Source: Salegentibacter mishustinae (GTDB lineage Bacteria; Bacteroidota; Bacteroidia; Flavobacteriales; Flavobacteriaceae). From it: DNA of 64,000 nt. Numbering within the stretch: position 1 is the first letter of the stretch; each line of letters starts with the position of its first letter. The position numbers and the translations under genes are program-made. The notes beneath the pieces are model-generated. The model saw only the letters and a program-made list of their open reading frames with translations, made no database searches and was not told the origin of the DNA. This document shows positions 53,580-62,360 of the stretch, in pieces. Location of the stretch: assembly GCF_002900095.1 (NCBI RefSeq), contig NZ_LLKN01000002.1, forward strand, positions 868,001 through 932,000. The letters run 5' to 3'.

Positions 53580-54812
53580 GTGGCTTTAGAATTTTTTAAA
53601 GAAAACGAGCAAGTATTTAATACCTTATTCGAAGCGGCTTCAGAGGGTGTTGTGGTGGTAAACGATCAGCAAACAATCGTTACCGCAAACAAGGCTGCCC
53701 TGGAGATGTTCGGGTACCAAAAAGAAGAGCTTGTAGGAGCAAACCTCAATATCCTTATTCCTAAACAATATAAAGCCAACCATCATGAACATTTCGATAA
53801 GTTTATGGCTCATAGCGAAAAGAGACAGATGGGCCACGGAAGGGATCTTTTTGGAGTGAAAAAAAACGGAACGCAATTTCCTGTTGAAGCAGGATTGAAT
53901 CCGTTTAAGGTAGATGGTGAGCGCTTTGTAATGTCTTTAATTGTAGATATTACGATTAGAAAAGAAAACCAGCGTCAAATTAGAGAATTGAATGCTGAAT
54001 TGGAGGATAAAATAAAGATAAGAACCCAGGAACTTAGTAATACGGTTGATGACCTGGAGAAGGAAATTTCAAAAAGAAAAGAGGCGGAAAAACGAATTAA
54101 ACTGGCCTTAAAACAGGAAAAAGAACTCAATGAATTAAAAACGAAATTTCTTTCCCTGGTTTCACACGAATTTAAAACCCCGCTAAGCGGAATACTTACT
54201 TCGGCCACTTTAGCCGAAAAATATACCCAAACCGAACAACAGGAGAAACGTACAAAGCACCTTACCACCATAAAAAACAAGGTGCATTATCTCAATAATA
54301 TTCTAAACGATTTCCTTTCGCTGGAGCGCCTGGAATCTGGTAATGTAAATTATAAATACACTGCATTTAGTCTTAATAAGTTAGTGAACGAGGTGATTTA
54401 CAATGCCAATGTAACACTTAAACACGGGCAGGAAATAGAGTATGATAATGACATGGAAGATGTTACCCTATATCAGGATGAAAAGATCCTGGAACTCATT
54501 CTTTCAAATTTAATCGGGAATTCTATTAAATATTCGCCAGAAGATTCCACGATATATTTCAGAATATTTCCGAAGGATAAAAAGATTATTTTTGAAGTAG
54601 AGGATGAAGGAATGGGAATTCCGCAGAAAGATCAGAAGCATATCTTTGAGCGTTATTTTAGGGCTGAAAATGCCCTGCTAAACCAGGGAACCGGGATTGG
54701 GCTCAATATTGTAAAGGTGCACGTAGAAAATATGGGCGGCACCATATTTTTTGAAAGTGTAGAAAATAAAGGCACTAAATTTACCGTAACATTACCTAAC
54801 CAAAATAGATAG
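53580..54812 (+). CDS. Soluble PAS sensor histidine kinase
   Basis: The protein has 410 residues and starts with GTG (MALEFFKENEQ); the overlapping ATG at 53578 meets a stop after two codons. A PAS domain (about 12-128), a coiled coil (130-185), HisKA with H196 in 'FLSLVSHEFKTPLSG' and HATPase_c ('NLIGNSIKYS', 'VEDEGMGIPQKDQKHIFERYFR', 'GTGIGLNIV') follow. No membrane helix, so it senses a cytosolic signal. PAS residues H68 and R88 align with heme-contact positions of FixL, but many non-heme PAS domains share them. The partner is the receiver-CRP protein encoded 39 bases downstream. Confidence 0.92.
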   Translation: MALEFFKENEQVFNTLFEAASEGVVVVNDQQTIVTANKAALEMFGYQKEELVGANLNILIPKQYKANHHEHFDKFMAHSEKRQMGHGRDLFGVKKNGTQFPVEAGLNPFKVDGERFVMSLIVDITIRKENQRQIRELNAELEDKIKIRTQELSNTVDDLEKEISKRKEAEKRIKLALKQEKELNELKTKFLSLVSHEFKTPLSGILTSATLAEKYTQTEQQEKRTKHLTTIKNKVHYLNNILNDFLSLERLESGNVNYKYTAFSLNKLVNEVIYNANVTLKHGQEIEYDNDMEDVTLYQDEKILELILSNLIGNSIKYSPEDSTIYFRIFPKDKKIIFEVEDEGMGIPQKDQKHIFERYFRAENALLNQGTGIGLNIVKVHVENMGGTIFFESVENKGTKFTVTLPNQNR

Positions 54813-54851
54813 TCACCAGTTTTTGTTGGTGAACATTGAAAATAGTTTGAA

Positions 54852-55883
54852 ATGAAGAAAATACTTTTAATTGAAGACGATGTAACCGTTAGGGAGAATA
54901 CAGCCGAATTGCTGGAACTCTCAAATTATGAAGTAGTAACCGCGCCCGATGGAAAAAAAGGCGTAGATAAAGCCAAAGAAGAAATTCCAGATATTATTGT
55001 GTGCGATATTATGATGCCAGAGCTAGATGGCTACGATGTGCTTAGTAGGTTATCTGAAGATCCTACCACAAAAGGAATTCCTTTTATTTTTCTTTCCGCA
55101 AAAACCGAGCATAAAGATGTAAGAAGAGGAATGGATCTTGGAGCAGACGACTATCTAACCAAACCTTTTGAAGAAGAAGATCTCTTAAGTGCAATTGAAA
55201 GTAGATTAGCGAAAGTAGAAATCTTACAATCTCAGAAAAATGAAGATGAGGGTGAATCTGTACAAAATTTATCTGCTTTTAGGGAAATGATGAGAAACCG
55301 GGAACAAATACAGTTTAAAGCCGGTGAGAGTATTTATGAAGAAGGAAAATCTTCGCTTCATTTTTATATGGTAGGCCGCGGCGTGGTAAAAGCTCATAAA
55401 TTTGATAGCAGGGGGAAAGAGATGATCACTGAATTGTACAAAGAAGATGACTTTTTTGGAAACCTTAGCTTTAATAAAAATTCGGCTTATGGAGAGTACG
55501 CCACAGCTTTAGAAGACAGTTTGCTTTACGTGGTTTCCAAAGATAATTTGCGTGGTATTCTGAAGAATAACAGCAATATTAGCATGGAATTATTGCAGGA
55601 AATGGGCGATCATTTAATGGGTGTAAAAGAGCAATTAATGGAAATTGCCTATGCTTCGGTGAGAAGAAAAACTGCACGCACCATTTTGCTATTCGCTCAT
55701 AAAATAAAGAAAAATCCTTTGCACAGCATTAGGATCTCCCGCGCCGACCTGGCGGGAGTTGCAGGTATAGCCTCAGAAACTTTAATAAGAACTCTTTCAG
55801 ATTTTAAAAAAGAAGGACTAATAGAGATTGAAGGGCGAAATGTCAAGCTCTTAGACGCCGAAAAACTGGAGCGTATTAGTTAA
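54852..55883 (+). CDS. Response regulator fused to a CRP/FNR-type transcription factor
   Basis: The protein has 343 residues. A receiver domain (1-122) with phosphoacceptor D52 in 'IIVCDIMMPELDGYDVL' and 'SAKTEHKD...DYLTKPF' is joined by a short linker to a cyclic-nucleotide-binding-like domain (about 150-260, 'QFKAGESIYEEGKSSLHFYMVGRGVVKAHKFDSRGKEM') and an HTH_Crp domain (about 265-343, 'ISRADLAGVAGIASETLIRTLSDFKKEGLIEI'). Phosphorylation by the PAS kinase likely drives DNA binding. No N-terminal Fe-S cysteines as in FNR are seen. It sits between its kinase and a stress gene that has a matching dyad. Confidence 0.93.
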   Translation: MKKILLIEDDVTVRENTAELLELSNYEVVTAPDGKKGVDKAKEEIPDIIVCDIMMPELDGYDVLSRLSEDPTTKGIPFIFLSAKTEHKDVRRGMDLGADDYLTKPFEEEDLLSAIESRLAKVEILQSQKNEDEGESVQNLSAFREMMRNREQIQFKAGESIYEEGKSSLHFYMVGRGVVKAHKFDSRGKEMITELYKEDDFFGNLSFNKNSAYGEYATALEDSLLYVVSKDNLRGILKNNSNISMELLQEMGDHLMGVKEQLMEIAYASVRRKTARTILLFAHKIKKNPLHSIRISRADLAGVAGIASETLIRTLSDFKKEGLIEIEGRNVKLLDAEKLERIS

Positions 55884-55893
55884 TTTTTCGAAG

Positions 55894-55939
55894 ACCTGAC
55901 GGGAATCATATTTGGGATTGATCTTTCAAACTATTTTTG
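55894..55939 (+). promoter_or_regulatory. CRP/FNR-type dyad and promoter of the universal stress gene
   Basis: The dyad ACCTGA-N6-TCATAT (55894-55911) is centred at 55902.5. A promoter follows: TTG (55912-55914), 17 bases, TATTTTTG (55932-55939). The dyad centre is exactly 33 bases before the centre of the -7 box, about -40.5 from the start of transcription, which is the class II activator position. Confidence 0.65.
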
Positions 55940-55968: not shown

Positions 55969-56712
55969 ATGAATGTTTTAATACTTACAGACTTTTCTGC
56001 TCAGGCCTATAATGCTGCCAGGTATGCCCTAAACTCTACGCCTGGGCCATCTAATTTTTATGTGCTCCATGCTTCTAATGGGGAAGCTGCACAAATGGAT
56101 GAGGCTCTTTCAGAATTGGTAGGTAAACTTAAGAAACAGCCTGCGGCGAAGCAGCATTGTTTTTCAGCTCTTCCTTTTTCCGATAATCTTATTAACGCAA
56201 CTCGAAAAGCTGTTATAGAAAAACGAATTGATATAATAGTGATGGGAGCTTCAGGAAAAAATACTTCTAATTTTCAGGGGCTTGGAGGAAATACCTGTAA
56301 CGTAGTAAAGAAAGTGAAATGCCCGGTGTTGGTGGTGCCAAACTGCGATTTTGAGCAATGGGAGCAATTATATCTTCCTTTAGATTTACGTTTTCCGGTA
56401 AATACCCAGGCGTTACAGTTATTGCAAAAGCTGCCGGTAACAGAAAATGTATCGCTAAATGTTTGGGAATTCGATCTAAATAATTCGGGAGCGAATATTG
56501 AGGATTTCAAGTCGGTTAATTACGAGCTTCATCGCCAAACCTTAAAAAAAGAATCAGATTTTCTGGATAAGTTCTGGCCAGAAGCGAATGCTAAGGCCAA
56601 TCTAATCGTATTTTTTGCCCGTCAACTTCATATTACCGAAAAGCTTTTAAACAGGCTTTCTACTGTGGGAAAAAGAAAGCAAAATCTTCCTGTACTTATA
56701 CTTCACGGGTAA
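55969..56712 (+). CDS. Universal stress protein, two-domain
   Basis: The protein has 247 residues. The first UspA domain is normal ('NVLILTDFSAQAYNAARYAL', 'IIVMGASGKN...GNTCNVVKKVKCPVLVVPN', with the GxG-type nucleotide motif). The second, after 'QLYLPLDLRFPVNTQALQLL', is degenerate and lacks the ATP motif. Such proteins respond to oxygen limitation or stress. It is 85 bases after the receiver-CRP gene and has its own dyad and promoter. Confidence 0.88.
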   Translation: MNVLILTDFSAQAYNAARYALNSTPGPSNFYVLHASNGEAAQMDEALSELVGKLKKQPAAKQHCFSALPFSDNLINATRKAVIEKRIDIIVMGASGKNTSNFQGLGGNTCNVVKKVKCPVLVVPNCDFEQWEQLYLPLDLRFPVNTQALQLLQKLPVTENVSLNVWEFDLNNSGANIEDFKSVNYELHRQTLKKESDFLDKFWPEANAKANLIVFFARQLHITEKLLNRLSTVGKRKQNLPVLILHG

Positions 56713-56881: not shown

Positions 56882-57448
56882 ATGACTAAAGAGGAAGTAT
56901 TAAATAGATTAAAAGAAGGTAATCAACGTTTTATTGAGGATAAAAAGGAGGGGAAATTACAGGATAAATCCCGAAGAGAAGAGTTAACCGGCGGGCAGTC
57001 ACCTTACGCTATTGTTTTGAGCTGTGCCGATAGCCGTGTAGTGCCAGAACTTGCTTTTGACACAGGCCTTGGAGAATTGTTTACCGTGAGGGTAGCGGGA
57101 AATATTGCCAATAGCTCCTCTATTGCCAGTATGGAATATGCTGTAGCGATTTTGGGGACCGAAATTATTGTAGTAATGGGACATGAAAGCTGTGGTGCTG
57201 TTAATGCTGCTATGAGTGGAGGCGATAATGGCTATAATTTAAATCATCTTGTTTCCCATATTGCTCCTGCTATTGCAGCCTCTAAAAAAGATGCGACTGT
57301 AAATGAGGTAGTGAAGAAAAATGCACACTTAACTGCCGAAGAACTTACCAGACGTTCTACGATAATTAAAGACGCTGTAGATAGCGGAAAATTAAAAATT
57401 GTACCGGCTTATTATAATCTCGATTCCGGGAAAGTAGATTTTCTATAA
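56882..57448 (+). CDS. Beta-class carbonic anhydrase
   Basis: The protein has 188 residues. It interconverts CO2 and bicarbonate. Zinc ligands C48, H101 and C104 and the catalytic dyad D50-R52 are in 'SCADSRVVPELAFDTGLGELFTVRVAGN' and 'VMGHESCGAVNAA'. No signal peptide, so it is cytosolic. It follows the stress gene after 169 bases; a CAATTTTG at 56827 could be a -7 box, but I find no dyad before it. A terminator follows. Confidence 0.95.
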   Translation: MTKEEVLNRLKEGNQRFIEDKKEGKLQDKSRREELTGGQSPYAIVLSCADSRVVPELAFDTGLGELFTVRVAGNIANSSSIASMEYAVAILGTEIIVVMGHESCGAVNAAMSGGDNGYNLNHLVSHIAPAIAASKKDATVNEVVKKNAHLTAEELTRRSTIIKDAVDSGKLKIVPAYYNLDSGKVDFL

Positions 57449-57623: not shown

Positions 57624-58007
57624 CTATTTTCTTGCCTGAAACATCTTTAAATATAAATGAGAAGACATTTTACGAGCGTTGTTTTTAGCCCGGTTGGCTA
57701 GTTCGCCCTCAAACAATTCGTCTATAGTTTCAAACCATAGGTTTAGCCATATTCCAAAATGATAGGAAGAAATTTCCTGGTGATTTTCCTGATCTACCTT
57801 AACATGAACTTTTTGCGGGTTCCCTGTATAAAGTGCTTTAAAAAAGAGGTTGCTTTCCCAGAAATCGGTTAACTTTTCGAGATGTGCATCCCAATCCTGT
57901 ATAACCTCATTAAAAAAATGACCAATTTCAGGGTTTTGCCTTACTTTTTTATAGAACCCGGAAACAAGTAAAAAAACATCTTCCCGGGTTTTAATATCAC
58001 CAGACAT
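57624..58007 (-). CDS. Group III truncated hemoglobin
   Basis: The protein has 127 residues, with 'DVFLLVSGFYKKVRQNPEIGHFFNEVIQDWDAHLEKLTDFWESNLF' typical of group III (trHbP). The likely proximal His is H68 in 'QKVHVKVD'; 'YHFGIWLNLWFETIDELFEG' is the following family motif. In Campylobacter the group III protein helps with oxygen supply and nitrosative stress; the role here is inferred. It follows the small membrane protein gene after nine bases in one transcript, with a CRP-like dyad upstream. Confidence 0.92.
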   Translation of the reverse strand: MSGDIKTREDVFLLVSGFYKKVRQNPEIGHFFNEVIQDWDAHLEKLTDFWESNLFFKALYTGNPQKVHVKVDQENHQEISSYHFGIWLNLWFETIDELFEGELANRAKNNARKMSSHLYLKMFQARK

Positions 58008-58016
58008 AAAAAGTAT

Positions 58017-58298
58017 TTAAAAAATATTTATAAGAATAAAGGTAGTGGAAATAGCAAGGCTTAGTAACAGAGCATTAAAAACAACTTTAGATTTGAATTG
58101 CGCTAAAATTACCGTGTTAAAACCCATACAGGCTACCACAACAATAAATAGTTGAAACATATCTAAAAAGCTGTGTCCGTTCATTAAAATTAGCATAGCC
58201 GCTACAGATCCTAAACAACTGGAAGCTATAATTCCCATTGCTGAATATCCCAAGCTCATCTCTTCAAAATCGACTAGTAAATTCTTGTAAAGTTTCAT
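58017..58298 (-). CDS. Small three-helix membrane protein
   Basis: The protein has 93 residues with three predicted membrane helices (about 20-40, 46-64 and 74-92) and a short charged N-terminus ('MKLYKNLLVDFEEMSLGYSA'). I do not recognise a named family. It is the first gene of the hemoglobin operon (nine-base gap), which suggests a link to respiration or oxygen handling. The upstream dyad with a -7 box at the correct distance supports this start. Confidence 0.72.
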   Translation of the reverse strand: MKLYKNLLVDFEEMSLGYSAMGIIASSCLGSVAAMLILMNGHSFLDMFQLFIVVVACMGFNTVILAQFKSKVVFNALLLSLAISTTFILINIF

Positions 58299-58321: not shown

Positions 58322-58367
58322 TAAAATTAAAGGGACAACAGTAGTTTTTTTATGAGTAAAATCATAA
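58322..58367 (-). promoter_or_regulatory. CRP/FNR-type dyad and -7 box of the hemoglobin operon
   Basis: TTATGA-N6-TCATAA (58350-58367), a perfect dyad centred at 58358.5, lies upstream on the minus strand of TAATTTTA (58322-58329, centre 58325.5, last base off consensus). The distance is 33 bases, exactly as in front of the stress gene. There is no TTG -33 element, as expected for an activated promoter. Confidence 0.65.
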
Positions 58368-61702: not shown

Positions 61703-62290
61703 TTATTTAGAAAATGTTGATTTGAATTTAATAGTTAGGTCTTCTCCTGTGGTAATTGTTCCAAACATAGCAGTAGGAGGGTCTACTTTGTAATGAGTCA
61801 TATTGATTTTTTGTTCACCATTAATTTGTAATTTATTTCCACTAAGTTTTACTGTAAACGCTACCGGAACTTGTTTAGAAACCCCTGAAATTTTTAAAGT
61901 TGCAAGACCGTTCACTTTGTAGGAGTCGCTTCCCTGAGCTTCAATCTTTTTAACTTCGTCCAGTTTAAATTCTATATTTTTATATTCGCTGGTATTAAGC
62001 GCTTTATAGGCATTTTTGTCCATTCCGCCTTTTCCGCTATCTAAACTTTCAGCAGGAACGGTAACCTGTAGGCTGGAAATTCCTGTAAGCTTACCATCTT
62101 CGGTAGTGATTGTGGCGCCTCCTTTTTTAGAATTTGCCTTCATTTCCCAATCGTGGATATTAGAAGTTCCTTCAACAATAATTTCTGAGGAATTATCCAT
62201 TCTAAAATTTTGGCCAACCATGCTTCCCGCGGTTAGCAACATAAAAAATACGCCTGTAAGTATTACTTGGTATGATTTTAAAACTTTCAT
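61703..62290 (-). CDS. YceI-family periplasmic protein
   Basis: The protein has 195 residues: a signal peptide (to 'GSMVGQ') and the full YceI fold ('IIVEGTSNIHDWEMKANSKKG', 'SSLQVTVPAESLDSGKGGMDKNAYKALNTSEYKNIEFKL', 'NMTHYKVDPPTAMFGTITTGEDL'). It binds long lipids such as polyisoprenoids in E. coli homologs. It is the first gene of an operon with the porin, controlled by a promoter with a CRP-type dyad. Confidence 0.94.
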   Translation of the reverse strand: MKVLKSYQVILTGVFFMLLTAGSMVGQNFRMDNSSEIIVEGTSNIHDWEMKANSKKGGATITTEDGKLTGISSLQVTVPAESLDSGKGGMDKNAYKALNTSEYKNIEFKLDEVKKIEAQGSDSYKVNGLATLKISGVSKQVPVAFTVKLSGNKLQINGEQKINMTHYKVDPPTAMFGTITTGEDLTIKFKSTFSK

Positions 62291-62314: not shown

Positions 62315-62360
62315 CAAAGTTGGGGTAGAAATGCAGCAGAATTTATGACGAGAGTCAGGT
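62315..62360 (-). promoter_or_regulatory. CRP/FNR-type dyad and -7 box of the YceI-porin operon
   Basis: On the minus strand ACCTGA-N6-TCATAA (62343-62360, centre 62351.5) precedes CAACTTTG (62315-62322, centre 62318.5; first base off TAnnTTTG) by 33 bases. The half-site ACCTGAC is the same as in front of the stress gene. The rest of the 268-base gap up to 62558 shows nothing I can name. Confidence 0.6.

Follow-up and report, generated by a model that had tools for sequence, protein, structure and literature searches.

A FixL-like kinase paired with a receiver-CRP fusion regulator: a candidate low-oxygen circuit in Salegentibacter and other Flavobacteriaceae

The kinase and fusion regulator locus

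Which signal would a CRP-type activator answer when it carries a phospho-receiver, and which genes would it control? The question is raised by two adjacent genes in a 64,000-nucleotide stretch of the Salegentibacter mishustinae genome (the window, to which plain coordinates refer). The first (53580..54812, + strand) encodes a soluble FixL-like sensor kinase of 410 aa with a GTG start, and the second (54852..55883, +) a response regulator of 343 aa in which a receiver, a CNB fold and an HTH_Crp domain are fused. A sequence-only reading of the window had described a PAS kinase side by side with a receiver-CRP fusion carrying D52; both ORFs were recovered at the same coordinates, and domain search agreed with the description. 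The two genes share a strand and are separated by a 39-base gap, an arrangement that would fit co-transcription. No experimental study of such a kinase/receiver-CRP pair was found in the open-access literature.

Pfam search of the kinase revealed PAS_9 at residues 22-125 (E 7e-16; 53643..53954, +), HisKA at 187-254 (3e-13) and HATPase_c at 300-408 (5e-27), and sequence inspection showed no apparent transmembrane segment. The predicted phosphoacceptor, H196 (54165..54167, +), lies in the HisKA box SHEFKTP and is present in 79/79 orthologues; this kinase core is shared with FixL. In the regulator, Response_reg (4-116, 5e-30), cNMP_binding (153-240, 4e-16; 55308..55571, +) and HTH_Crp_2 (275-342, 4e-13; 55674..55877, +) were detected, all three being families named in the sequence-only reading.

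The kinase gene stands directly upstream of the fusion gene in 78 of 80 Flavobacteriaceae loci fetched independently, and a universal stress protein (Usp) gene, at 55969..56712 (+) in the window, is the third gene in nearly all of them. The receiver-CRP architecture occurs in 56 of 395 Bacteroidota genomes, spread over several families of the class (E<=1e-50, at least residues 4-337 covered). The pairing and this distribution together indicate that the arrangement is not due to chance, and the pair is old. Its nearest relatives are from Salegentibacter. Other recurrent neighbours in the 80 loci, with gene names assigned by reading the sequences, are hemN, ccoN, ccoP, ccoG, ccoI, a truncated hemoglobin and a 93-residue protein. 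The neighbours had earlier been used as a clue to the signal. Of these, the beta-carbonic anhydrase (56882..57448, +) and the CoA-transferase were considered as conserved partners and rejected, both being local only in the 80-locus comparison.

The PAS sensor and its signal

The best solved relatives of the kinase PAS domain found by sequence search are FixL and DosP (1d06, E 1e-19). A PAS profile built from 42 orthologues and compared with the PDB gave FixL at 1e-32 and DosP at 1e-27, while the best LOV domain reached 1e-13. In a fold search with the PAS model (mean pLDDT 87.5), the top 15 matches were all FixL heme domains, with 34% identity to 1d06. H68 (53781-53783, +), which aligns with the heme-ligand His of FixL, is kept in 79/79 kinases and is invariant in distant families too, and R88, at the position of the FixL/DosP pocket Arg, is kept in 74/79. 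The similarity to the heme PAS of E. coli DosP (Ec DOS) includes both of these positions; DosP, however, is a phosphodiesterase and not a kinase. The curated FixL model NF041777 scores the kinase at 103 bits versus 850 bits, and we therefore call it FixL-like rather than FixL. A His at the PAS heme position is no proof of heme, but judged from these alignments heme sensing by the kinase PAS is likely. The kinase would then bind heme and read O2 through it.

The sensors of more distant relatives were also compared by reading their motifs. In three distant Bacteroidota (L105, L111 and L114), the kinase beside the fusion has a near-textbook FixL PAS (H-D-x-Y-I ... IIGIGRE) that reads almost like that of Bradyrhizobium FixL. 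The fusion partners in L094, L095 and L100 are other sensor kinases. Those of L094 and L095 (genomes G226 and G103) contain the LOV-like motif NCRFLQ followed by another PAS, suggesting light input to the same receiver-CRP output module. Since the fusion has a LOV-PAS kinase as its partner in some relatives (L094, L095 and L100), O2 is not a universal input; by its sequence context, the output module is coupled to differing inputs elsewhere.

These relatives bear on a second interpretation, in which the two proteins do form a two-component system but respond to another ligand, flavin, redox or stress instead of O2 via heme, with a general stress regulon (Usp, Hsp20) as output. The coupling of LOV-PAS kinases to the same output speaks for it, as do the constancy of Usp, the most constant neighbour, and the dissimilarity of the PAS subtype to FixL over much of its sequence. 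Yet the nearest solved PAS structures are all heme sensors, with LOV far weaker by profile, H68 is invariant, and either neighbourhood or the DNA box described below connects the pair with cbb3, hemN and nos genes. We consider a signal other than O2 possible but rather unlikely.

The fusion regulator and its DNA box

The receiver of the fusion has the acidic pocket and the phospho-Asp, Thr/Ser and Lys positions of response regulators. D52 (55005..55007, +), the aligned phosphoacceptor and predicted phosphorylation site, is invariant in 81/81 orthologues together with K104 and C51; E8, D9, D10 and S82 are each found in 80/81, and D52, K104, E8 and D9 are also invariant in 46 more diverse sequences. 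The CRP half has the CNB fold and HTH_Crp of the CRP/FNR superfamily and aligns with structures of GlxR, Mycobacterium CRP, DNR and FixK2. The predicted structure of the whole protein showed good domains with uncertain domain packing (pLDDT 83.5, pTM 0.62), and none of the best structural matches was a solved chain covering both receiver and CRP. The recognition helix reads SETLIR, with E309 and R313 invariant and I312 nearly so.

The fusion shares its fold with cAMP-CRP and GlxR, the best solved relatives of its CRP half, but the cAMP phosphate-binding cassette is absent from its CNB, where FFGNLS...SAYGEYA stands against MFGELS...PRTSSA (GNL...YGEYA in place of G-E-L...R-S-A), and a receiver has been gained. 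The four Fe-S ligand cysteines of FNR are absent as well, the sole cysteine of the protein being C51 in the receiver. From FixJ, a receiver joined to a LuxR-type HTH, it differs in combining the receiver with CNB and HTH_Crp_2. The sequence-only reading had taken CRP/FNR proteins to be normally ligand-sensing, which does not always hold, since FixK is controlled through FixLJ (PMC2908626). Its proposal that here a CRP-type activator is under phosphorylation control is well supported by the architecture, the pairing and the residue conservation. According to the mechanism we propose, a drop in O2 would leave the deoxy-heme kinase active and lead to phosphotransfer to D52; the phospho-receiver, instead of cAMP or an Fe-S cluster, would then serve as the switch by which the CRP half dimerises productively and binds DNA.

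The FNR box TTGAY-N4-RTCAA was tried first as a candidate site and gave 28 sites in the genome versus 11 in a reversed control. It was dropped because it was absent from the best palindromes upstream of linked genes, and de novo search gave ATGAY-N4-RTCAT instead. In this blind palindrome search of 106 kb of intergenic DNA from 80 loci, ATGAT-N4-ATCAT occurred 21 times and ATGAC-N4-GTCAT 14 times, each versus 0.1 expected (35 exact palindromes combined versus about 0.2). The sites lie mostly 50-70 bp upstream of start codons, including those of Usp, cbb3 and other genes. A box (A/C)TGAY-N4-RTCAT with a match of at least 9/10 is found just 3' of the fusion gene, in the Usp promoter, in 76/80 loci compared with 4% of shuffles, and its distal half is CTGAY in most loci. 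In the window this box, CTGACGGGAATCAT, occupies 55896..55909 (+).

Class II sites of CRP/FNR activators are centred at -41.5. In 59 of 81 sites a -7 element TAnnTTTG was found at an offset of exactly +29 relative to the centre of the box, and it never occurred at a different one; 8/8 hemN sites share this spacing. Since TAnnTTTG is the Bacteroidota -7 consensus with its T at -12 (PMC6847099), this spacing centres the box at a predicted -41.5, the transcription start in these 59 sites being that predicted from the consensus. The Usp promoter of the window has the element TATTTTTG (55932..55939, +; consensus in PMC6847099) at this fixed distance, and relative to the predicted start the centre of its box falls at -41.5. 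No such -7 spacing was found in the ccoI promoters of other genomes, so that the geometry is not universal. A further alternative is an inhibitory receiver, phosphorylated at high O2 to turn the regulator off. The sign of control is not fixed by sequence, but O2 binding inactivates FixL kinases (PMC4999443) and the box stands at an activator position; we regard this alternative as quite improbable.

Across the S. mishustinae genome, counts of exact ATGAY boxes were uninformative (13 versus 23 in the control), whereas position and orientation were informative, as was the CTGAY form with 15 sites versus 4 in the reversed control. By the annotation used, 11 of the 15 are intergenic, and 8 of those are followed by a start at a distance of 58-80 bp and have the CTGA half on the far side from it. 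Boxes precede ccoI (60 bp before the start), ccoS/ccoN (58 bp), hemN (56 bp), the cytochrome gene heading the nos operon (62 bp, measured from an internal ATG), Usp (67 bp), Hsp20 (80 bp) and a WG-repeat gene adjoining a Usp cluster (62 bp). Two further boxes lie on the - strand of the window. One, CTGACTCTCGTCAT (62345..62358), is 62 bp before a gene for a YceI-like protein (61703..62290, -) and is followed, at the fixed distance, by the weak -7 element CAACTTTG. The other, ATGATTTTACTCAT on the gene strand (58352..58365, one mismatch), is 61 bp before orf93/hemoglobin, and the -7 element at the fixed distance from it is close to the consensus. Here orf93 (58017..58298, -) encodes a membrane-like protein of 93 aa with no Pfam family, and it adjoins the gene for a group III truncated hemoglobin (57624..58007, -; 2ig3, E 4e-11). 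This 93-aa family, present in 29/80 loci, is often found beside a truncated hemoglobin with a box in front.

Low oxygen had been put forward as the signal in the sequence-only reading. It gains from the proximity of the PAS to FixL/DosP, from the cbb3, hemN and Usp neighbours and from FNR-type boxes before respiratory genes. These features suggest that the pair turns on low-oxygen genes controlled elsewhere by FNR or by FixL-FixJ-FixK. Bound to (A/C)TGAY-N4-RTCAT boxes at -41.5, the fusion, as the putative reader, would bring about class II activation, and the activated set would comprise cbb3 oxidase, hemN, nos, Usp, Hsp20, truncated hemoglobin and YceI genes. The whole chain, from low O2 through the kinase and the phosphorylated fusion to class II activation as a shortened FixL-FixJ-FixK circuit, seems to us somewhat probable.

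Readers of the box, FNR and the FixLJ-FixK cascade

A box specific to the fusion regulator was considered and rejected, as genomes without the fusion also have it. In Flavobacterium genomes that lack the fusion, ccoI and hemN are preceded by the same box, and beside ccoI these genomes encode a CRP protein of 226 residues in which four cysteines are invariant, presumably an Fe-S FNR. Its recognition helix and that of the receiver-CRP protein have E..IR in common. By these comparisons the box is of the FNR type and common to both proteins, and its presence is not enough to tell which protein reads it, because these Flavobacterium genomes possess it without the fusion. Besides the fusion and a paralogue, no cysteine FNR was detected in the Salegentibacter genome at E<=1e-12, and two further Salegentibacter genomes in the sample lacked it too. 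Among 298 Flavobacteriaceae genomes, 109 have both proteins, 60 the fusion only (including all three Salegentibacter), 97 FNR only and 32 neither. The two proteins are thus only weakly anticorrelated (odds ratio 0.60, p 0.058, uncorrected for phylogeny). In five loci (L045, L047, L056, L078 and L086), a 225-aa CRP gene with an N-terminal CxxC lies just past Usp, which places an FNR-like gene in one neighbourhood with kinase, fusion and Usp. In a tree, the copy from L045 grouped with the cysteine FNRs.

The paralogue of the fusion (L146:13041-14054; G000:C2:1763040-1764053) is receiver-dead, with D52 replaced by K and no receiver domain found by Pfam. Its recognition helix retains the residues E, I and R. 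FNR-type boxes flank the gene, Hsp20 and three Usp genes come after it, and in the tree the protein sits on a long branch within the receiver-CRP group. Judged from its sequence, it may also read the box or share the regulatory task. The -41.5 boxes could even be read by another CRP-type protein altogether, namely this paralogue here and cysteine FNR elsewhere, with the fusion acting elsewhere or only at its own Usp promoter. The same box in genomes without the fusion, and the position of the paralogue between boxes with its recognition residues kept, would be expected from this. However, 76/80 loci conserve the box that directly follows the fusion gene, Salegentibacter retains its boxes without a cysteine FNR, and the contact residues of the fusion suit the same box. 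We judge a different reader unlikely, and infer that the fusion reads the box. In Salegentibacter, where cysteine FNR is lacking, control of the set in response to O2 would fall mainly to the fusion, perhaps together with the paralogue.

Compared with FNR, the fusion has in common the TGA-N6-TCA box at -41.5, the recognition helix E..(S/I)R and the low-O2 gene set, but it has no N-terminal cysteines, carries an added receiver and would be controlled by a kinase. The FixL-FixJ-FixK2 system of Bradyrhizobium and Caulobacter likewise has a FixL-type PAS kinase and a CRP/FNR-family output without Fe-S cysteines, and its gene set overlaps in cbb3, hemN, Usp, Hsp20 and PNPOx (PMC2908626, PMC9104804). 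It differs in that one receiver-CRP protein here takes the place of the FixJ and FixK steps, so that phosphorylation would target the CRP protein directly rather than the transcription of its gene; the box of the cascade is TTGAY-N4-RTCAA as against (A/C)TGAY-N4-RTCAT, and the host phylum here is Bacteroidota.

In Caulobacter, FNR has been displaced by FixLJ-FixK (PMC2908626, PMC4999443). By analogy, FNR may have been replaced by the kinase-fusion pair in Salegentibacter. In a broader form, a heme-PAS kinase and a fusion that kept the box would have assumed control of the FNR regulon in Salegentibacter and perhaps in a fifth of Flavobacteriaceae genomes (the 60/298 that have the fusion but no detectable cysteine FNR), exchanging the Fe-S sensor for phosphorylation of an FNR-type activator independently of the Caulobacter takeover. 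This broader form is a serious possibility that falls short of being probable. The earlier reading of the window had noted neither the likeness to FixL nor the DNA box nor the lack of a cysteine FNR in Salegentibacter. If the proposed circuit is correct, an FNR-type activator would be directly under phosphorylation, in an oxygen wiring that merges FixJ and FixK in one protein, and many marine Flavobacteriaceae would have a candidate O2 circuit for cbb3 oxidase, denitrification and stress genes. The candidate circuit has a defined box and promoter geometry that are directly testable. The receiver-dead paralogue and the LOV-coupled relatives are cases of the output module joined to other inputs.

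A box-like site was also observed 71 bp upstream of a ScdA/hemerythrin (ric-like) gene (185-907 in L149:106-3092). Downstream of this gene lies a short CRP protein of 198 aa (L149:2496-3092), possibly a NO or nitrogen-oxide regulator.
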